From positions 482,001 to 546,000 of the forward strand of contig NZ_JAATJE010000002.1 of assembly GCF_011927695.1 (NCBI RefSeq): a stretch of 64,000 nt of DNA, in the 5' to 3' direction. This stretch comes from Sphingomonas jejuensis (GTDB lineage: Bacteria > Pseudomonadota > Alphaproteobacteria > Sphingomonadales > Sphingomonadaceae). A program made the translations under genes and the position numbers. The notes below the pieces were generated by a model. It did not search any database and was not told the DNA's origin. It saw nothing but the letters and a program-made list of their open reading frames with translations. Below are positions 3,698 through 12,950 of the stretch, one piece after another (the stretch's first letter is position 1; the number at the start of each line of letters is the position of its first letter).

Positions 3698-4381
3698 TCA
3701 GGCCGCGATCGGAAAGCGCAGCAGCCGGTCGGCGAGCGGCACCCACGCTTCCGCGCCGGCGCCGACCGCGCGCCGCAGTTCCGGATGATCGACGTCGAGC
3801 CCGCCGGTCAGCGCGCCGAATGCGGGCAGCACCAGCTTCGTGCGGGTCGCGACGAAGCAGCGGCGCGACACCTGCCGCCCGCGCGCGCCGACGCGCAGTT
3901 TGGGATGGAAATGCCCTGACAGCTCCGGTCGACTGTCGTGCGGGTCCGCCTCGTGGCGCAGGACGAGCCCGTCCACCACGGCTTCCTCCATCACCTCGCC
4001 GCCGCAGCGGTCGACGATCGCCGTGTCGGGCGACAACAGGCCACGGTCGTGGTTGCCCGTGATCCAGGTGAAGCGAGTCGCCCCGGTCAGCGCGCGCAGC
4101 CGCTCCTGCGCCGCCTGCGGCAGCCGCTCGCAGCCCCTTGCATCGTGGAAGCTGTCGCCCAGGCACCAGATCTCCCGCGGGCGGTGGGCATCGACCAGCG
4201 CTTCGAGCGTGTCGAGCGTCGCCAGGCTGTCATAGGGCGGCAGCATCTGCCCCCACCGCGCGAACCAGCTCGCCTTCTCCAGGTGCAGGTCGGCGACCAG
4301 CAGCGCGCCGCGGGCAGGCCACAACAGCGCGCCATCCTTCAGCGCGAGCAGATGATGGCCGGAGAACAGGACGGGAACCAC
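3698..4381 (-). CDS. pdeM: Ligase-associated DNA damage response endonuclease PdeM
   Basis: 227-residue calcineurin-like metallophosphoesterase. Metal motifs are in order: DLH (31-33), GDSFHD (75-80), GNHD (109-112), LRHE (141-144) and GHFHP (156-160). The family is normally encoded beside an Lhr-like helicase, a beta-CASP exonuclease and an ATP-dependent ligase; here the first two lie 3.4-7 kb away. GTG 4381 is chosen as start because the fold begins right after it; the ORF extends upstream only through antisense-like sequence inside the neighbouring protease gene. Confidence 0.85.
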   Translation of the reverse strand: MVPVLFSGHHLLALKDGALLWPARGALLVADLHLEKASWFARWGQMLPPYDSLATLDTLEALVDAHRPREIWCLGDSFHDARGCERLPQAAQERLRALTGATRFTWITGNHDRGLLSPDTAIVDRCGGEVMEEAVVDGLVLRHEADPHDSRPELSGHFHPKLRVGARGRQVSRRCFVATRTKLVLPAFGALTGGLDVDHPELRRAVGAGAEAWVPLADRLLRFPIAA

Positions 4382-4412
4382 GCCCCGGCTATGCCGCGCC
4401 TGCCCGCGCGGA

Positions 4413-5429
4413 TCAATCCCGCGACGCGGACGCAATGCGGGAGAGCATGCCCGTGCGCGCCGTGAACATCTGCGCCGGCCTGCCGATATGGTCCCGCGCC
4501 TCCAGCCGCACGCGCCGGGCGGCGAAATCCACCGACACCCGCCGGAACAGCCGCAGCGCGTCCATGCCCAGCAACATCGCCGGCCGGTCGGCGAGGCCGA
4601 AGCGGTGAAAGGGCGCGGCATCGGTGAAGGCGACGGGCAGGTTCGCGATCTCCGCCGTGCCGATGGTGATGGTGCTGAGCGGGGCGCTCTCGGCCTGCAG
4701 GCTTTCCCCGGTGACGCTGGTCAGCTCGACCGGCACGCTGCCGCGTCGCGCGAGCCGGCGCCGGAGCGCGAGATTGCCGACGCTCACCTGCGATCCGGTG
4801 TCCAGGATGACATGCACCCGCTCCCCGTTCATGGTGGCGTCGGCGAGCACGAGCTGGCCATAGCGGCTGCGCGCGCGGATCACGATGGTGTCGCCGTCCC
4901 AGCGCTCTTCCCGCACGCTGGCCGGCTCCACCCGCATCTCGCCTCGGTCGAAGTCGAGCAGCACGCGCTTGCCCTGCAGGGCATCCAGGCCGATCAGCCC
5001 GGCCGCGCCCAGGTGGCGCCCGGCAAAGGCGGGCGCGACCAGACCGCTGCGCGACACGCCGCTGACGGCAAGCGTCGGGATGTGAACGGACGGCGCCGTG
5101 CTCTGCCCCGCCATGCTCAGGACGCGCACGTCCGGCCCCTCGCGCAGCCGCAGCGCGCGGGCGAGCTCGGTGGACACCACCGTGCGTTCGGATCCCGTGT
5201 CGACGACGAACGGGTAGGTGACGGAGCCCGCGACACTGACCGGGACCGTCATGCGATCGACCGAGTCGAGGCCAAGCAGGATCACCGACACGTCGACCAG
5301 TTCGGGCGCATCGAGCAGCGCCTCGATCTCGCGCGCCTGCGGCGCCGCGCCGGCAAGGCTCAGCCAGAGAACGGCCGCAGCGGCCGAGGCACCCATCCGG
5401 GGCCGCCGCGGGCAAAGCGGGATCGGCAT
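4413..5429 (-). CDS. Two-domain retropepsin-like aspartic protease, exported
   Basis: 338 residues. An N-terminal hydrophobic stretch (about 13-30, ending LAGAAPQA) looks like a signal peptide. Two separate active-site signatures are visible, VVDTGS (75-80) and ILDTGS (208-213), each followed later by a hydrophobic glycine segment (AAGLIGLDAL and AMLLGMDALR). The chain therefore holds two retropepsin-like halves that could form an internal dimer, as in bilobal pepsins. Substrate unknown; bacterial members are annotated as aspartyl protease family proteins. ATG 5429 follows a purine-rich GGGGAAAGAGG. It lies 31 bases upstream of pdeM on the same strand. Confidence 0.8.
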   Translation of the reverse strand: MPIPLCPRRPRMGASAAAAVLWLSLAGAAPQAREIEALLDAPELVDVSVILLGLDSVDRMTVPVSVAGSVTYPFVVDTGSERTVVSTELARALRLREGPDVRVLSMAGQSTAPSVHIPTLAVSGVSRSGLVAPAFAGRHLGAAGLIGLDALQGKRVLLDFDRGEMRVEPASVREERWDGDTIVIRARSRYGQLVLADATMNGERVHVILDTGSQVSVGNLALRRRLARRGSVPVELTSVTGESLQAESAPLSTITIGTAEIANLPVAFTDAAPFHRFGLADRPAMLLGMDALRLFRRVSVDFAARRVRLEARDHIGRPAQMFTARTGMLSRIASASRD

Positions 5430-5487
5430 CCTCTTTCCCCTTCTGTTTGAAGAGGATGCTACGCCTGTTCGCCCCGGTCGTCCATCG

Positions 5488-6594
5488 TCAACGCCCGCGC
5501 GCGGCCTCCGCCTGCGCGAGCAGGCGCAGCACGTTGCCCGACCAGATCTTCTCGACGTCGGCCGGGGTGTAGCCGGCGGCGAGCAGCCGCTCGGTGATCT
5601 TCGGAAGCGCGGCCACGTCCTCCATGCCGAGCACGCCGCCGCCGCCGTCCCAGTCGCATCCGATGCCGACATGGTCGACGCCGGCCACTTCGATGAGGTG
5701 GAGGAGCGAGCGCATGAACAGCTCGAAATCGGCCGGCGTGCCGGTGCGCTCCGCCTCCGGCCGGCGGGTCTGGCCGATCGACCAGTCGGACAGGAACAGC
5801 GCGTTGGCCTGGATGACGCCGCCCTTCGCCGCCAGCGCGCGGATGCGCGCGTCGTCGATGTTGCGCGGATGGTCGTAGATCGCCTTCGGGCCGGAGTGCG
5901 ACAGGATGATCGGCGTGGTCGACAGCGCCAGCATCTGGTCGAATGCCGCGTCGGACGAATGGCTGCCGTCGACGATCATGCCCAGCCGGTTCATCTCCGC
6001 CACCCATTGCCGGCCAAGCGGGCTGAGGCCGCCCCAGCGCCCCTGCCCGGTGGTCGAATCGGCAAGCTGGTTGTCGGCCGAATGCACCGGCCCCGCCATC
6101 CGGACGCCGGCATCGTACCACCGGCTGAGCTGCGACAGGTCCTCCCCCAGCGGCAGGCTGTTCTCGATCGAGATATAGACCACCCGCTTGCCCGCCGCGA
6201 CGATCCGCGCGGCATCGGCGGCGGTGGTGGCAAAGGCGAAGCTGTCCGGATTGTCGCGCACCATCCGCTGGATGTTGGCCAGGCGGCGCTCGGCATGCGC
6301 GCGCGCGGCGGCATAGCCCGCAGGCGTGGTCGGGCCGGACGGCGTGTAGATCACCCAGAAACCGCCATCGAGACCGCCCTCCGCCATGCGCGGCAGGTCG
6401 ATCTGGCTCCCGTCCGCGGAATAGCTGTGGCGATCGCGGATCGACCAGGCCGGGTCGTCCATCTGCGCCGGCGTATCCAGATGCGTGTCGAGCGTCAGCG
6501 CCCGGTCATGCACCGCGCGCGGGTCGGCGGGGGCGGTTGTGGTGGTCTGGCACGCGGCGAGCAGCAGGGCGGCGGCGGGGATCAGGATGGGCAT
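5488..6594 (-). CDS. Membrane dipeptidase (renal dipeptidase family M19), lipoprotein
   Basis: 368 residues. The lipobox LLAAC places the lipidated cysteine at residue 15, so the enzyme should be anchored in the envelope. Family M19 zinc ligands are visible: the early HLD (H38, D40), an internal glutamate in YISIENS, and the downstream histidines in DGSHSS and ILSHSG; VGIGCDWDGGGG is the typical late motif. Members hydrolyse dipeptides, including D-amino-acid dipeptides. It is transcribed towards the aspartic protease 58 bases downstream, suggesting a small peptide-degradation unit. Confidence 0.88.
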   Translation of the reverse strand: MPILIPAAALLLAACQTTTTAPADPRAVHDRALTLDTHLDTPAQMDDPAWSIRDRHSYSADGSQIDLPRMAEGGLDGGFWVIYTPSGPTTPAGYAAARAHAERRLANIQRMVRDNPDSFAFATTAADAARIVAAGKRVVYISIENSLPLGEDLSQLSRWYDAGVRMAGPVHSADNQLADSTTGQGRWGGLSPLGRQWVAEMNRLGMIVDGSHSSDAAFDQMLALSTTPIILSHSGPKAIYDHPRNIDDARIRALAAKGGVIQANALFLSDWSIGQTRRPEAERTGTPADFELFMRSLLHLIEVAGVDHVGIGCDWDGGGGVLGMEDVAALPKITERLLAAGYTPADVEKIWSGNVLRLLAQAEAARGR

Positions 6595-6697
6595 GGATCG
6601 TCACGCTAGCTCTACCGGCGCGAAAAGCGAGAGCCGACATGCCATTGGCACCAGGCCCTGCGCCGTCCTAAGCCATGCGAAAGCAGGGGGAGGAACG

Positions 6698-7756
6698 ATG
6701 ATCGATCGGCGGGGCGTGATCGCCAGCGGCATGGCCGTGGCTGTCGCGGGCGCGGCACGGGCGGCGGGACACGGCGGCGCCGAAGACGCGCGCCTGGCCG
6801 GTCTCGCGCTCCCGCCCGGCTTCCAAGGCATGCTGGCCCTTGGACGAGCCGGTCACATCGTCGCCGCGCGCCCGGTCGGCATGGCCGACATCGAAGCCGG
6901 TCGTCCGGTCTCCGCCGGCACCCGGTTCCGCTGGGGATCCGCGACCAAGTGGCTGGTGAGCACGGCGGTGCTGCGCCTTCACGAACAGGGGCGCCTTTCG
7001 CTCGACGCGCCCGTGGCCCGCTACCTGCCGGACCTCCGGCCGGACGACGCGACGCCCGTGCTGGTGCGCCATCTCCTCTCGAACACCAGCGGCATTCCCG
7101 ACCTCCTGTCGCGGCAGGTGGGACAGGAGCCTGAACTGCGGACGTCGCGGGCGCCGGCGCTGGCGATCGCCCGGCGCTTCGCGGGCGCGCCGCTCAGCTT
7201 CGCGCCCGGCACGGGCTGGGACTATGCGGCGCTCAACTGGGTCATCGTGGCCGCACTGACGCAGCAGGTGACGGGGGACCCGCTGGTCGCCACCGTTCAG
7301 CGGCTGGTGCTCGATCCGCTGCGACTGCGCAGCACCGGCTTTGCGCAAGCGGACCAGCCGGACATGCCCGCGCTCGCCGCGGCCTACGGCGTCGTCGATC
7401 CGCCGGAGCGCAAGATGGCGCCGGTGCCGCCGTTCCTCGCGGCGAGCGGCACCGTCGCCGGCAGCGCCGCCGATGCCGTCGGCGCGGCCCATGGCATCTT
7501 CCACGGCGCGCTGCTGAACGCGGCCTCGCGGCAGGAACTGACGCGGATCCACTGGGCGGATCAGGACTATGCGCTCGGCGGCCGCGTCCGCGTCATCGGC
7601 GGCACGCGCTATGCCTGGGAAGCCGGCAAGGTGGGGGGTTACCGCGCGCTCATTGCGCACCGCTTGGATCGCAGCGAGACGATCGTCGTCTTCAACACCA
7701 CCGACCTCGACCAGGCGGTGATCAGCGCCCTTGCCGAGGACATCGCCCGCGCCTGA
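6698..7756 (+). CDS. Serine hydrolase of the beta-lactamase/class C fold, exported
   Basis: 352 residues. The N-terminus has twin arginines (MIDRRGVIAS) and a short hydrophobic run ending GAARAAG, fitting a Tat-type signal. The catalytic S-x-x-K is SATK (81-84) and the third motif is KVG in GKVGGY. The second motif, usually Y-x-N, reads WDYAALN: Y176 is kept but the N two places later is alanine. It therefore may be a penicillin-binding-like esterase or peptidase rather than a true beta-lactamase. ATG 6698 has AGGGGGAGGAA before it. It is divergent from the dipeptidase gene. Confidence 0.82.
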   Translation: MIDRRGVIASGMAVAVAGAARAAGHGGAEDARLAGLALPPGFQGMLALGRAGHIVAARPVGMADIEAGRPVSAGTRFRWGSATKWLVSTAVLRLHEQGRLSLDAPVARYLPDLRPDDATPVLVRHLLSNTSGIPDLLSRQVGQEPELRTSRAPALAIARRFAGAPLSFAPGTGWDYAALNWVIVAALTQQVTGDPLVATVQRLVLDPLRLRSTGFAQADQPDMPALAAAYGVVDPPERKMAPVPPFLAASGTVAGSAADAVGAAHGIFHGALLNAASRQELTRIHWADQDYALGGRVRVIGGTRYAWEAGKVGGYRALIAHRLDRSETIVVFNTTDLDQAVISALAEDIARA

Positions 7757-7768
7757 CGGGCATCCTCC

Positions 7769-10240
7769 TCAATCCTCCCGCATCGCCTCCGCCGCCAGCG
7801 CTTCGGCTTCGATCAGCAAGGCGTCGTCCGCCGCGGACGAGCTGACGCGCTCGCGGCCGATCAGCACCAGCACCGGCACCGCCAGCGGGGACACGCGGCC
7901 AAGGTCGACATGCACCATCGTGTCGGCCGCCCGGTCCAGCAAGGAGGCGAGCCGGCCGACATCCGTCATCCGCGCCCGCGCATCCTCCCACGCGGCGCGC
8001 AGCAGCAGGTGGTCCGGCTCATATCGGCGCAGCACGTCGTAGATGAGGTCGGTCGAAAAGGTGACCTGCTTGCCCGTCTTGCGCTTGCCCGGGTGCTGCC
8101 GCTCCACCAGCCCGCCGATCACCGCCACCTCGCGAAAGGCACGCTTCAGGAGGTTCGATCCCTGCACCCATTCGACGAACTCGTCCGCCAGGATGTCCTT
8201 GGAAAACAGCGCGGCAGGATCCGTGATCGGATCGAGCGAGTAGCAGGCGAGCGCATAGTCGTTGGACACGAAGCCCAGCGGCTTCAGCCCCTGTGCTTCC
8301 ATGCGCTTGGTGACCAGCATGCCGAGCGACTGGTGCGCGTTCCAGCCTTCGAAGCTGTAGGCCACCATGTAATGCCGCCCCTCGCGCGGGAAGGTCTCGA
8401 CCAGCAGCTCGCCCGGCTGCGGCAGCCGTGATCGGCGCGCCTGCGCATCCAGCCATTCGTGGACGTCCGTGGGAAAGCGATCCCATTCGCTGCGGTCGTC
8501 CAGGAAGACGCGCACCCGGTCGGCCAGGCTCGTCGACAGCGGCATGCGGGTGCCTACATAGGTCGGGATGCGCGCCGGCCGGCTGGTGGAGCGCACGATC
8601 AGGTCGGCCGTGTCCATCCGCTCCACCTCCAGGCTGAGGCCAGCGAAGAAGAAGGTGTCCCCGACGCTCAGCGTCGACGCGAAATACTCCTCCACCGTTC
8701 CAAGCTTGCGACCGTTCTTGAAGCGGACGTCGAGCGTGGTCGCATCGACGATGATCCCGGCGTTCAGCCGGTGCTGCTGCACGAAGCGCGGGTGGCTGAC
8801 GCGCCAGCGCCCGTCGGCATCGCGCGTCAGCCGCTTGAACCGGTCATAGGCCTTCAGCGAATAACCGCCCGACTCGATGAAGCCGAGCACGCGCGAGAAG
8901 GTGTCGGCGTCGAGCGCGGAATAGGGCAGCGCCCCGCGCACCTCGTCCAGCAGTTCGGCCTCCTCGAAGCTGCCGGCGCAGGCGACCGCCATGACATGCT
9001 GCGCCAGCACGTCGAGCGCACCGGCACGGAACAGATCCGGGTCCAGCTCGCCCGCCTCCACCGCGTCGAGCGCGGCCTGCGCTTCCAGATATTCGAAGCG
9101 GTTTCCGGGGACGAGCACTGCGCGGCTCGGCTCGTCGAGCCGGTGATTGGCGCGACCGATGCGCTGCAGCAGCCGCGACGATCCCTTGGGCGCCCCCATC
9201 TGCACGACGCAATCGACATCACCCCAATCGACGCCCAGGTCGAGCGAGGCCGTGCAGACCAGCGCGCGCAACCGGCCATCGGCCATCGCCGCCTCGACCT
9301 TGCGCCGCGCCTCGATCGACAGCGACCCGTGGTGCACGCCGATCGGCAGCTTCTGATCGTTGGCGCTCCACAGGTCCTGGAAGATCAGCTCGGCCAGCGA
9401 ACGCGTGTTGCAGAACACCAGCGTCGTGCGATTTCGCTCGATGAGGCGCATCACCTGTTCGGCGGCATAGCGGCCGCTGTGGCCCGACCATGGCACCCGG
9501 CCGGTCGGCAGCAGGATGTCGATCTCCGGATCGGCGCCGGGTTCACCCTCCACCAGCGTCACCGCACCGATGTCGCCGTCGGGCGCCAGCCAGGCGCGAT
9601 ACCCGTCGGGATCGGCGACCGTCGCGGACAGGGCCACGCGCCGCAGATCGGGGGCGAGCGTCTGGAGGCGCGCCATCGACAGGGCCAAAAGGTCGCCGCG
9701 CTTGCCGGTCGCAAAGGCATGCACCTCGTCGATGACGATGGTGTCCAGCCGCCCGAACATGTCGGCCGCCTCCGGATAGGAAAGCAGCAGGCTGAGCGAT
9801 TCGGGCGTCGTCAGCAGCATGTTGGGCGGGCGCTGCCGTTGCCGCGCCTTGCGGTCGGACGGCGTGTCACCGCTGCGCGCTTCCACCGTGATGTCGACGC
9901 CCATCTCTTCGATGGGGGCCAGCAGGTTGCGCCGCACATCGACCGCCAGCGCCTTCAGCGGCGAGACGTACAGCGTGTGGAGCCCGTCGCGCGGCTGCTC
10001 GATCAGCGACTGGATGCTGGGCAGGAACCCGGACAGCGTCTTGCCCGCGCCGGTCGCCGCGACCAGCAGCGCGTGGCGCCGGTCGGCGGCGGCGGCAAGC
10101 ATGTCACGCTGGTGCCGGCGAAGCGCCCAGCCGCGTCCTTGCAGCCAGGCGGCGATCGTCGGGTGGAGCGCGGGGTCAGCGCTGGGCGTCGTCGCGCTTG
10201 TCCTCCGCATCGATGCGGTCGCGCAGGTCGTGGGCGGCAT
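7769..10240 (-). CDS. Ligase-associated DNA damage response DEXH-box helicase (Lhr-like)
   Basis: About 820 residues. The superfamily 2 core shows Walker A ATGAGKT (62-68), DEVH (171-174), and later SATV and the arginine-rich QRIGRANH motif VI. The C-terminal half carries the WH and Lhr-core regions that define the Lhr family. It acts on damaged DNA and is normally encoded with an exonuclease, PdeM and an ATP-dependent ligase. ATG 10240 gives the longest product; ATG 10210 (starting MRRTSATTPS) is also possible and shortens the overlap with the small membrane gene upstream from 65 to 35 bases. Confidence 0.9.
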   Translation of the reverse strand: MPPTTCATASMRRTSATTPSADPALHPTIAAWLQGRGWALRRHQRDMLAAAADRRHALLVAATGAGKTLSGFLPSIQSLIEQPRDGLHTLYVSPLKALAVDVRRNLLAPIEEMGVDITVEARSGDTPSDRKARQRQRPPNMLLTTPESLSLLLSYPEAADMFGRLDTIVIDEVHAFATGKRGDLLALSMARLQTLAPDLRRVALSATVADPDGYRAWLAPDGDIGAVTLVEGEPGADPEIDILLPTGRVPWSGHSGRYAAEQVMRLIERNRTTLVFCNTRSLAELIFQDLWSANDQKLPIGVHHGSLSIEARRKVEAAMADGRLRALVCTASLDLGVDWGDVDCVVQMGAPKGSSRLLQRIGRANHRLDEPSRAVLVPGNRFEYLEAQAALDAVEAGELDPDLFRAGALDVLAQHVMAVACAGSFEEAELLDEVRGALPYSALDADTFSRVLGFIESGGYSLKAYDRFKRLTRDADGRWRVSHPRFVQQHRLNAGIIVDATTLDVRFKNGRKLGTVEEYFASTLSVGDTFFFAGLSLEVERMDTADLIVRSTSRPARIPTYVGTRMPLSTSLADRVRVFLDDRSEWDRFPTDVHEWLDAQARRSRLPQPGELLVETFPREGRHYMVAYSFEGWNAHQSLGMLVTKRMEAQGLKPLGFVSNDYALACYSLDPITDPAALFSKDILADEFVEWVQGSNLLKRAFREVAVIGGLVERQHPGKRKTGKQVTFSTDLIYDVLRRYEPDHLLLRAAWEDARARMTDVGRLASLLDRAADTMVHVDLGRVSPLAVPVLVLIGRERVSSSAADDALLIEAEALAAEAMRED

Positions 10241-10358
10241 GCTCGGTCCGCTCGATCTCGCGCGGGCCCGACGCCCGGTTGCGCATGATCGCCCACAACA
10301 GCGCGGCCAGCAGCAGGATGGGGCCGACCACCGTCAGCAATGACCAGAGACTTTCCAC
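10176..10358 (-). CDS. Small single-pass membrane protein, 60 residues
   Basis: GTG start at 10358 preceded by a strong AAGGAGG with five-base spacing, which is why I call it real. Residues 6-24 (SLLTVVGPILLLAALLWAI) form one membrane helix; the rest is a charged tail rich in E, R and D that may form an amphipathic helix. No known family recognised. Its 3' end overlaps the start of the helicase gene in another frame, so the two are probably translated from one message. It sits where an ATP-dependent ligase gene might be expected in this cluster. Confidence 0.6.
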   Translation of the reverse strand: MESLWSLLTVVGPILLLAALLWAIMRNRASGPREIERTEHAAHDLRDRIDAEDKRDDAQR

Positions 10359-10492
10359 GGCGCCCTCCTTGGCAGAACTTCGATGGCTCCGGAACGGTTG
10401 GCGGCGACAAGGTTTCCGAAGCTGATCGTCCGCGTGGAGCCGCCCGGGCGGGCGCGCGTTCCCCGCCTGATGATCGCTGCGACCGTGAAACG

Positions 10493-11503
10493 ATGAGCCG
10501 GCCGGGCCGCTGGCTGGAGGTCCACCGCGAGGGCATCTACGTGCCCGCCGCCGATGCGTGGATCGATCCCTCGCAGCCGAAGCCGCGCGCGCTCGTCACC
10601 CATGGCCATGCCGATCACGCCCGTGGCGGGCATGGCGCCGTGTGGGCGACGCCCGACACACTGGCCATCATGGATGTCCGCTATGGCGCGCAGGCGGCAC
10701 ATCCGGTGCATTATGGTGAAAGCGTGACGCTCGGCAGCGGCGACGCCGGCGTCGAGGTCAGCTTCGTGCCTGCGGGCCATGTGCTCGGCTCCGCGCAGAT
10801 CGTCCTCGATCATGCGGGCGAGCGGGTGGTGGTGTCGGGCGACTACAAGCGCCGCGCCGATCCGACCTGCGCCCGCTTCCAGCCGGTCGCCTGCGACGTG
10901 TTCGTGACGGAAGCGACCTTCGGCCTTCCCGTGTTCCGCCATCCGGAAACCCACGAGGAGCTGGAAAAGCTGCTCGCCGCGCTTCGCGACAACCCCGATC
11001 GCTGCGTGCTGGTCGGCGCCTATGCGCTCGGCAAGGCGCAGCGCGTCATCCGGGAACTGCGTGACCTCGGCCACGCCGACCCCATCTACATACATGGTGC
11101 GCTCGCCCGGCTTTGTGCGCTTTACGAGGATCTCGGCGTCAACTTGGGCGACATCCGCCTCGTCGCCGACACCCCCAAGGACGACATGCGCGGCCGCGTG
11201 GTGATGTGCCCGCCGTCCGCCCTCAACGACCGCTGGAGCCGGCGCCTGCCGGAGCCGATCACCGCCATGGCGTCAGGCTGGATGCGGGTGCGGCAACGCG
11301 CGCGGCAGAAGAACGTGGAGCTGCCGCTGATCCTGTCGGACCATGCCGACTGGGACGAGCTCACCGCCACGATCGAGGAGCTGTGTCCGAAGGAGGTCTG
11401 GGTCACTCACGGCCGCGAGGACGCACTGATCCACTGGTGCATGACCCGCCAGATCAAGGCGCGCGCGCTGGAACTGGTCGGCTATGAGGACGAGGACGAC
11501 TAG
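10493..11503 (+). CDS. Ligase-associated DNA damage response exonuclease (beta-CASP metallo-beta-lactamase fold)
   Basis: 336 residues. Metal-binding HGHADH (37-42) opens the metallo-beta-lactamase fold, a GHVLGS segment and VSGDYKRRAD follow, and the C-terminal LSDHADWDEL plus VTHGRED match the beta-CASP nuclease end seen in SNM1/CPSF-type enzymes. ATG 10493 is preferred to the upstream in-frame 10340, whose lead is arginine/proline-rich with no similarity to the fold. It is divergent from the helicase and small membrane gene with a 134-base gap that should hold both promoters. In other genomes an ATP-dependent ligase gene usually follows; here a PEPxxWA protein gene follows on the opposite strand. 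Confidence 0.88.
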   Translation: MSRPGRWLEVHREGIYVPAADAWIDPSQPKPRALVTHGHADHARGGHGAVWATPDTLAIMDVRYGAQAAHPVHYGESVTLGSGDAGVEVSFVPAGHVLGSAQIVLDHAGERVVVSGDYKRRADPTCARFQPVACDVFVTEATFGLPVFRHPETHEELEKLLAALRDNPDRCVLVGAYALGKAQRVIRELRDLGHADPIYIHGALARLCALYEDLGVNLGDIRLVADTPKDDMRGRVVMCPPSALNDRWSRRLPEPITAMASGWMRVRQRARQKNVELPLILSDHADWDELTATIEELCPKEVWVTHGREDALIHWCMTRQIKARALELVGYEDEDD

Positions 11504-11527: not shown

Positions 11528-12328
11528 TTACGCCGAAACGAGCGCGTTTTTGCGGCGGCGCATCGCGCTGCCGACCAGGCCGAAGCCCGCGATCATCATC
11601 GCCCAGGTCGCCGGCTCCGGCACCGCCGGGGTGGTCGATGCGAGCGTGGCTGTCAGCGAGAAGTCGTCGATGGCGAGCGCGTCTTCGGCGCCGGACGCGT
11701 CGAAGTCCGACCACCGCAGAGCGATCGAGCCCCCGTTTGCAACGGCGATGTTGCCGATCGTGCCGGAGTAAGCCGTGCGATTGTTGTTGCCGACCAGCAC
11801 ACCGGTCTGGCTCGAGACGGTGGAGAGCACGTCAAGCGCCGAGATCCGAACCCAGTTGGAGGTGCCGGTCAGGTTGGTGCCGCCCACAAGATACTCGAAG
11901 ATCAGCGAGTCGGCGCTGCTCGAACCGTTGCGGTACTGCTCGCCGAAGAAGTTGAGCGAGAGCGCGTTGATCGTGCTGCCGGTCTGGTTGTTGAAGACCA
12001 CACCGATGGCCGACCGCAGGCTGCCGCTGCTGAGAGTGCCAAAGGCCCGGTCAGCGTTGTTGGCAGCGCCAAAGCTGTAGGTGTTGCCCTGATTGTCGGA
12101 GCCTGTGCCCGCCGTATACGTCGTGTCGGCGTTGTCTTCGCTCTCGAGGAACTGCCAGCCATTGGCAACGACGCCTCCGGCCGCGTTCGCCGAACCGGAC
12201 GAGATCAGCGTGTTGAAATCAGTGGAATAGCTCGTGCCGGTGAGCACGACGGCGGCCTGGCCGGCGGCGGGCAGAGCAAAGAGCATGGCCGCGGCGGAGA
12301 GCCGCGCGCCCGAAGTGACGATGGTCAT
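11528..12328 (-). CDS. PEPxxWA-CTERM sorting domain protein
   Basis: 266 residues. An N-terminal signal peptide (residues 1-25, ending AAGQA) and the C-terminal tail PEPATWAMMIAGFGLVG followed by MRRRKN form the exosortase-type sorting signal of sphingomonads. The mature part is rich in S, T, N and G (for example LISSGSANAAGG), as in extracellular or surface proteins of unknown function. It lies downstream of ssb on the same strand after a 100-base A+T-richer gap. Its last 67 bases of tail-coding DNA nearly repeat those of the second PEPxxWA gene. Confidence 0.85.
   Translation of the reverse strand: MTIVTSGARLSAAAMLFALPAAGQAAVVLTGTSYSTDFNTLISSGSANAAGGVVANGWQFLESEDNADTTYTAGTGSDNQGNTYSFGAANNADRAFGTLSSGSLRSAIGVVFNNQTGSTINALSLNFFGEQYRNGSSSADSLIFEYLVGGTNLTGTSNWVRISALDVLSTVSSQTGVLVGNNNRTAYSGTIGNIAVANGGSIALRWSDFDASGAEDALAIDDFSLTATLASTTPAVPEPATWAMMIAGFGLVGSAMRRRKNALVSA
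11560..11626. repeat. 67-base near-identical PEPxxWA tail-coding segment, copy 1
   Basis: Matches bases 19101-19167 at 63 of 67 positions by eye. It codes for the PEPATWAMMI to MRRR sorting tail of the protein at 11528-12328. Confidence 0.8.
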
Positions 12329-12428: not shown

Positions 12429-12950
12429 TCAGAACGGGACGTCGTCATCCAGATCGGCGTCGAAGGCGGAGCTGCGGCCACCGCCGGAAGATCCCCCACG
12501 CGAACCACCCCCGCGTCCGCCGCCGAAGCCGCCACGGTCACCGCCGCCGCGATCCTGATCGCCCCAGTCGCCAGCGCCCGAACCGCCGCCACCGCCATCA
12601 CGGCCTCCGAGCAGGACGAGTTCACCGCGGAAACGCTGCAGCACCACCTCGGTGGTGTACTTGTCCTGACCATTGTTGTCGGTCCACTTGCGCGTCTGCA
12701 GCTGCCCTTCGAGGTACACGCTGGACCCCTTGCGCAGATACTGCTTGGCGATGCGGCCAAGATTCTCGTTAAAGATCACCACGCGGTGCCATTCGGTCTT
12801 TTCACGACCCTCGCCGCTGGACTTGTCGGTCCAGCGCTCGGACGTCGCGACGGACAGGTTCACGACCTCGCCCCCCGATCCCATCGAGCGTGACTCGGGG
12901 TCGTTGCCCAGATTGCCGACCAGGATGACCTTGTTGACGCTGCCTGCCAC
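12429..12950 (-). CDS. ssb: Single-stranded DNA-binding protein
   Basis: 173 residues. The OB-fold starts [19 protein letters not shown] and contains the usual W-rich strand KTEWHRVV and [15 protein letters not shown] long glycine/arginine-rich linker (about 115-160) leads to the acidic tip DLDDDVPF, the docking peptide for repair and replication partners. It binds and protects single-stranded DNA during replication and repair. Length and layout are normal for the family. Confidence 0.96.

Follow-up and report, generated by a model that had tools for sequence, protein, structure and literature searches.

A ligase-associated DNA repair gene set in dispersed form, with a predicted small membrane-protein gene beside it, in Sphingomonas jejuensis

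Repair genes and a small open reading frame in the window

The window analyzed here, a 64-kb stretch of Sphingomonas jejuensis DNA (contig C2, positions 482001-546000, of a 2.96-Mb genome in 10 contigs that is 99.7% complete), carries three genes of a ligase-associated repair set, encoding an Lhr-type helicase, an exonuclease and the metallophosphoesterase PdeM, an endonuclease also called MPE, as well as a small open reading frame (ORF) of 60 residues between the first two. All four repair genes, including that of the ATP-dependent ligase, are present in the genome with their main motifs; the exonuclease and ligase genes are co-inherited, and the ligase gene lies 83 kb away. An earlier note on this DNA had recognized the helicase, the exonuclease and, 3.4 kb away, PdeM, and the three assignments were confirmed by scores over the curated cut-offs of TIGR04121, TIGR04122 and TIGR04123, respectively.

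The ligase-associated DEXH box helicase (7769..10240, minus strand) scored 1067.8 bits against a cut-off of 850, with the Pfam domains DEAD, Helicase_C, WH_Lhr and DEAD_assoc, a Walker A motif AATGAGKT and a DEVH box. It has two start candidates, ATG 10240 and ATG 10210; a comparison showed that the second agrees with the start in several relatives, and the true start may be that one. The gene of the metallo-beta-lactamase-fold exonuclease (10493..11503, plus strand) is transcribed divergently from the helicase gene. Its product scored 456.9 bits (cut-off 325) and carries HGHADH, which fits the HxHxDH pattern; the fit of the conserved protein placed its start at ATG 10493 on the plus strand rather than at 10340. 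PdeM (about 3698..4390, minus strand, the conserved part being given as the start is not fixed) scored 213.7 bits (cut-off 150), contains GNHD and GHFH, and is separated from the helicase gene by 3,433 bp with other genes between. The motifs named here for the three enzymes, and below for the ligase, are those that we take to be the main catalytic motifs.

The small ORF (10176..10358, minus strand) reads in the direction of the helicase gene and divergently from the exonuclease gene. It starts with GTG behind the ribosome site AAGGAGG, and its product has a single hydrophobic, membrane-span-like stretch, with a Kyte-Doolittle mean of 2.51 over 19 residues. Its overlap with the helicase frame amounts to 65 bp for a helicase start at ATG 10240 and to 35 bp for one at ATG 10210. 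The description in the earlier note, a 60-residue membrane protein with a strong ribosome site overlapping the helicase start, proved accurate. For none of the helicase starts within the small ORF did the ribosome-site consensus match at more than three bases. A divergent stretch of 134 bp (10359..10492) separates the small ORF from the exonuclease gene, and both promoters are presumed to reside in it.

The ligase and the co-inheritance of the four genes

A six-frame scan of the window with a profile of 30 related ligases detected no such ATP-dependent ligase (best E 0.21), as the earlier note had stated. A genome-wide search gave matches to the ligase family TIGR04120 at two places, both on contig C2 and both outside the window. 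The first is a full ATP-dependent ligase of the LigB type at C2:407568-409148, which scored 771.5 bits (cut-off 400), contains the motifs KxDG, SRTGD and EGVMLK and the Pfam domains DNA_ligase_A_M and DNA_ligase_A_C, and is separated from the exonuclease gene by 83,363 bp. The second, at C2:699749, is weak (77.6 bits) and corresponds to LigD, with Ku just upstream. The full-length ligase on C2 rules out the loss of the ligase from this genome, and the apparently missing part of the set is explained: it is present, only moved. The earlier note had left two options, a ligase elsewhere or a set that works without one. The former is correct, the ligase being on the same contig; the latter is, as far as sequence can tell, not supported for this genome or for the exonuclease, although in some other genomes it may apply to helicase plus PdeM, as described below.

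The same four enzyme families form the Lhr-Core/MPE/LIG/Exo cluster studied in Pseudomonas putida (Ejaz and Shuman 2018, in the passages of PMC10140301 and PMC8301817 that cite it). Unlike the P. putida genes, those of S. jejuensis do not form one cluster or operon, as the ligase is detached, the helicase is divergent from the exonuclease, and PdeM lies behind other genes. All four proteins exceed the curated cut-offs of TIGR04120-TIGR04123, the NCBI "ligase-associated DNA damage response" and bacterial ligase families, and only the gene order differs, as far as tested. A passage of PMC10140301 calls the LigB operon one whose role is not known, and passages of two genome papers give such genes by annotation only (PMC11678681, PMC12654122). 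No account of the repair set in sphingomonads, or of the small-protein family described below, was found in the limited open-access literature.

The inheritance of the four genes was analyzed in a family set of 59 genomes (that of S. jejuensis and 58 relatives) and in a class set, an even sample of 279 Alphaproteobacteria of which four belong to the family of S. jejuensis. In the family set, where exonuclease and ligase were counted over the curated cut-offs, helicase at E 1e-100 and PdeM at E 1e-20, the exonuclease and the ligase each occurred in 30 genomes, and a comparison of the lists showed these to be the identical 30. The helicase was found in 34/59 and PdeM in 35/59; the helicase was the only one of the four not found in G022, a genome 67% complete. 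Five of the 59 genomes (G002, G003, G018, G036 and G046) carried helicase and PdeM without an exonuclease or a TIGR04120-type ligase (E 1e-3).

In the class set (exonuclease and ligase at E 1e-60, helicase at E 1e-150, PdeM at E 1e-20; three second pieces, of the ligase in G455, the helicase in G596 and PdeM in G618, were left out of the tally), we counted 71 genomes with the exonuclease, 69 with the ligase, 95 with the helicase and 95 with PdeM. A ligase at the strict threshold accompanied the exonuclease in 69 of the 71 genomes, and no genome had the ligase without the exonuclease. The two apparent exceptions (G486 and G535) carry a diverged ligase directly beside the exonuclease, with 33% identity (E 2e-60) in one and 23-25% over two pieces (E 5e-8) in the other. 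These diverged ATP-dependent ligases, below the strict TIGR04120 threshold, are located at L245:7049-8434 and L246:5810-7303. An exonuclease without any ATP-dependent ligase was thus seen in no genome of either sample. Helicase and PdeM occurred together in 94/279; 25 of these 94 were under the strict thresholds for exonuclease and ligase, and some of them may carry diverged copies. The remaining exceptions were G657 with exonuclease and ligase only, G518 lacking only PdeM, and G618 with PdeM alone.

Because the helicase-PdeM pair is wider and the exonuclease tracks the ligase in both samples, the set looks like two inheritance units, helicase with PdeM and exonuclease with ligase, the second nearly nested in the first. 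A count reported in PMC8301817, where 276/319 genomes had MPE near their bacterial lhr genes, fits helicase and PdeM as the core unit. The two-unit pattern predicts a ligase-independent job for these two proteins, for which the name "ligase-associated" would be misleading. A further possibility is that helicase, exonuclease and PdeM act here without a LigB-type ligase, by way of LigD or an NAD-dependent ligase. The LigD gene with Ku upstream, together with the five relatives that have helicase and PdeM alone, would be in line with it; however, the genome keeps a full-length cognate ligase with its motifs, and every exonuclease-bearing genome sampled has some ATP-dependent ligase, so that we give this possibility very little credence.

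Gene order and regulation

In the class set, exonuclease and ligase were no more than 1 kb apart in 60/69 genomes. Helicase and exonuclease were within 1 kb of each other in 25 of the 70 genomes with both, that of S. jejuensis included, and all 25 pairs were divergent. The S. jejuensis genes thus share the divergent arrangement and the distance of less than 1 kb with other Alphaproteobacteria that have a divergent helicase and exonuclease-ligase pair, but most of the ligase-bearing genomes of the class set have the ligase adjacent to the exonuclease. In this set, a ligase on the same contig and more than 80 kb away was found only in G000 and G114, and a ligase on another contig in G546 and G695.

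Closer to S. jejuensis, the ligase was away from the exonuclease in 11 of the 30 family-set genomes with both. We then combined these 30 exonuclease loci (flanks of 1.5 kb, ligase distance from genome coordinates) with 50 named loci (flanks of up to 4 kb, nine cut by contig ends), giving 80 loci with 77 different proteins and a few genomes represented twice. The helicase adjoined the exonuclease without an adjacent ligase in 50 loci, the ligase without the helicase in 25, and both in two (G012 and G017); three had neither or were undecided. Named loci with the helicase beside the exonuclease mostly bore Sphingomonas, Sphingosinicella or Sphingomicrobium labels. The eight named exonuclease-ligase loci came from Sphingobium (three), Novosphingobium, Rhizorhabdus, Altererythrobacter and Sphingomonas YR710 and Y57; in the loci seen from the first four genera, exonuclease and ligase were joined, with no helicase within 4 kb. 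The gene-order comparison in sphingomonads proposed in the earlier note revealed a detached-ligase layout common to many Sphingomonas-type relatives. Ligase adjacency changed four times on the exonuclease tree (80 rows), and therefore the detachment of the ligase from the divergent helicase/exonuclease pair is, as read from this tree, an old lineage trait and not peculiar to this genome. Among the loci, the exonuclease of Sphingomonas daechungensis (L146:4001-4994) aligned in one frame only over residues 109-336, although the whole stretch matched, which possibly reflects a broken frame.

The detached ligase gene is preceded, at about 100 bp and in the same direction, by a ferritin-like gene (Pfam Ferritin; L001:904-3090), presumably of the Dps type in our reading. 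In G034, G114, G027 and G021 a related gene precedes the ligase gene by 0.4 to 1.9 kb; counting S. jejuensis, this makes 5 of the 12 detached-ligase genomes examined, some with short flanks. A link of the detached ligase to oxidative stress is possible from this proximity.

The regulatory regions of both places were scanned for the LexA-type box GTTC-N7-GTTC. The 34 intergenic stretches scanned contained no exact match. When up to one mismatch was allowed, the box was still absent from the intergenic stretch of the window and from the regions preceding the ligase and ferritin-like genes. The window contained one exact match, at 4364, where by our estimate about two would be expected by chance; we read it as lying inside the first pdeM codons. 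The scans rule out SOS-type co-regulation through such boxes. The earlier note had considered a ligase at a second locus with the same regulation, and it is the second locus that was found, with no LexA-type box at either place to join the two. No match to a sigma-70-like promoter was obtained at the helicase/exonuclease locus or the ligase locus, and three terminator-like sites, all on the opposite strand, were found upstream of the ferritin-like gene.

The 60-residue protein and the interpretation of the locus

The 60-residue protein matched no family in NCBIfam (E 0.001) or Pfam (E 1). A scan of 33 proteins of its family gave only scattered weak matches, none of them in the window's own copy: DUF6203 in one member (E 1.6e-4) and DUF4381 in seven (best 0.018) from Pfam, and YidC in 11 (best 0.0026) from NCBIfam. 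A profile of four copies recovered the family in 84/397 family genomes, that of S. jejuensis included, with a single copy in 83 of the 84, and a wider profile recovered it in 48/199 genomes with one copy each; as the number of first-look candidates scored per genome was limited in these searches, the absences are soft. The S. jejuensis protein shares the traits of the family, namely the membrane-span-like stretch, a GPxLL and an NR motif, a charged tail and one copy per genome (alignment A2). The span-like stretch was present in 82/83 copies, as was a good ribosome site, the latter being a partly circular result, since the ribosome-site score had served to select the starts. By the positive-inside rule, the basic residues after the span suggest that the tail is cytoplasmic.

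The ORF is short, lies in a genome of high guanine-plus-cytosine (GC) content and partly overlaps another coding frame, as might be expected if it were an open frame that covers the helicase start by chance. Nor did the ratio of nonsynonymous to synonymous substitution rates (dN/dS) indicate clear purifying selection (0.25 to 2.20 in the 30 lowest-dS pairs; median 0.82 over 2018 pairs), although we judged these values saturated or biased in such short, high-GC genes and as giving purifying selection no support. In contrast, protein-level relatives outside the query alignment occupy the same place in other genomes (for example G070, E 1.8e-22), and further relatives occur at unrelated places with no helicase overlap. 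The relatives at the same place rule out a chance frame, to which we attach practically no probability, and, because of them, the small ORF is, on protein-level evidence, a real gene of an apparently undescribed small-protein family. Being a membrane-protein family without a convincing Pfam or NCBIfam match, it provides a concrete target.

Flanks of up to 6 kb per side were fetched at 84 small-gene places besides that of the window; two (L230 and L231) failed a stricter small-family profile and were dropped, leaving 82 copies. The helicase was downstream in the same direction in 38/82, mostly directly and in a few at 0.3 to 3.4 kb. In 27/82, rplA was upstream in the same direction, within 250 bp in 20 and at 1.4 to 4.8 kb in the others, and the identity of this neighbor as the gene of ribosomal protein L1 was confirmed. 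The other 17 comprised one beside the exonuclease only and 16 elsewhere, such as before a ubiG-like methyltransferase gene or behind argG-like and rlpA-like genes (the names being our reading). Copies at rplA (e.g., L187, L191, L198 and L205) often face a gene that we read as CinA-like.

The earlier note had hinted that the small protein stands in for the ligase. The presence of the ligase in the genome and the varied homes of the small gene (44 of the 82 fetched copies are away from the helicase) speak against this, and we reject it. The same note had raised the loss of the small ORF in close relatives, and part of the relatives did lack it: of the 52 loci that pair helicase and exonuclease, 27 showed the gene. 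Could the protein nevertheless have a function in the repair set of this lineage, in that it tethers the helicase to the membrane or regulates it there? The helicase home, in the window and in the 38 fetched copies, changes to another home or back only three times on the (poorly resolved) small-protein tree, and the overlap in S. jejuensis suggests joint translation with the helicase. On the other hand, 25 of the 52 helicase-exonuclease loci show no copy, presence of the small gene changes 14 times on the exonuclease tree, more than half of the fetched copies are at rplA or elsewhere, and three genomes (G004, G013 and G019) carry all four repair genes yet have the small gene at rplA instead. 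We therefore regard a functional membership as unlikely. From these distributions, the small gene is apparently a sphingomonad gene, in nearly all cases present as one copy, that came to lie before the helicase in one large lineage and was lost or moved repeatedly; by the same comparisons, the repair set does not include it as a constant member.

Caulobacter SidA and DidA are damage-induced small membrane proteins that inhibit division. By this description the S. jejuensis protein resembles them in being short, with one membrane span and a repair gene beside it; it differs in that no exact LexA-type box was present in the 34 intergenic stretches and that many copies adjoin a ribosomal gene. 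The protein might be read as a membrane-located effector of the DNA-damage response in sphingomonads, for example a division brake made together with the helicase by coupled translation, its rplA home linking the brake to ribosome supply; we hold this reading to be highly improbable.

Taken together, these data make it very likely that the locus represents the known four-gene repair set in dispersed form, presumably acting jointly in trans, plus a separate small-protein gene. Since the exonuclease and the ligase are inherited together, we infer a single pathway in trans, in which the helicase would open the DNA, the nucleases would trim it and the ligase would seal it. The small ORF and the helicase are probably on one transcript, with the small ORF read from the helicase promoter, and the strong ribosome site of the small ORF may supply ribosomes to the helicase start that it overlaps, since no good site belongs to that start itself. 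The small protein itself is most likely, from its predicted features and distribution, a membrane-anchored accessory with a charged tail that is dispensable for the repair set. Several points weigh against this interpretation. It is from sequence that we infer the joint action of the enzymes in trans, the co-transcription and the translational coupling; no promoter motif common to the helicase/exonuclease and ligase loci was found; and the overlap is not conserved, the spacing of small gene and helicase in relatives varying between an overlap and several hundred bases or more. Further, the 50 named loci, having been retrieved with peptides of the exonuclease in the window, are biased towards its closer kin, and in five draft genomes (G020, G021, G022, G028 and G029) the ligase counts as detached only because it lies on another contig than the exonuclease. 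Overall, we consider the locus an ordinary case of a known repair set, rearranged, with the two-unit inheritance pattern and the apparently undescribed small membrane-protein family as by-products.

Other genes surround the repair genes in the window. An aspartyl-protease-like ORF and an M19 dipeptidase gene lie between PdeM and the helicase (4413-7756), where a beta-lactamase/D-aminopeptidase-like ORF under all cut-offs shown was also seen on the plus strand. On the other side, a gene for a single-stranded DNA-binding protein (12429-12950, minus strand) is located 0.9 kb past the exonuclease gene, from which it is separated by a PEP-CTERM protein gene (11528-12328).

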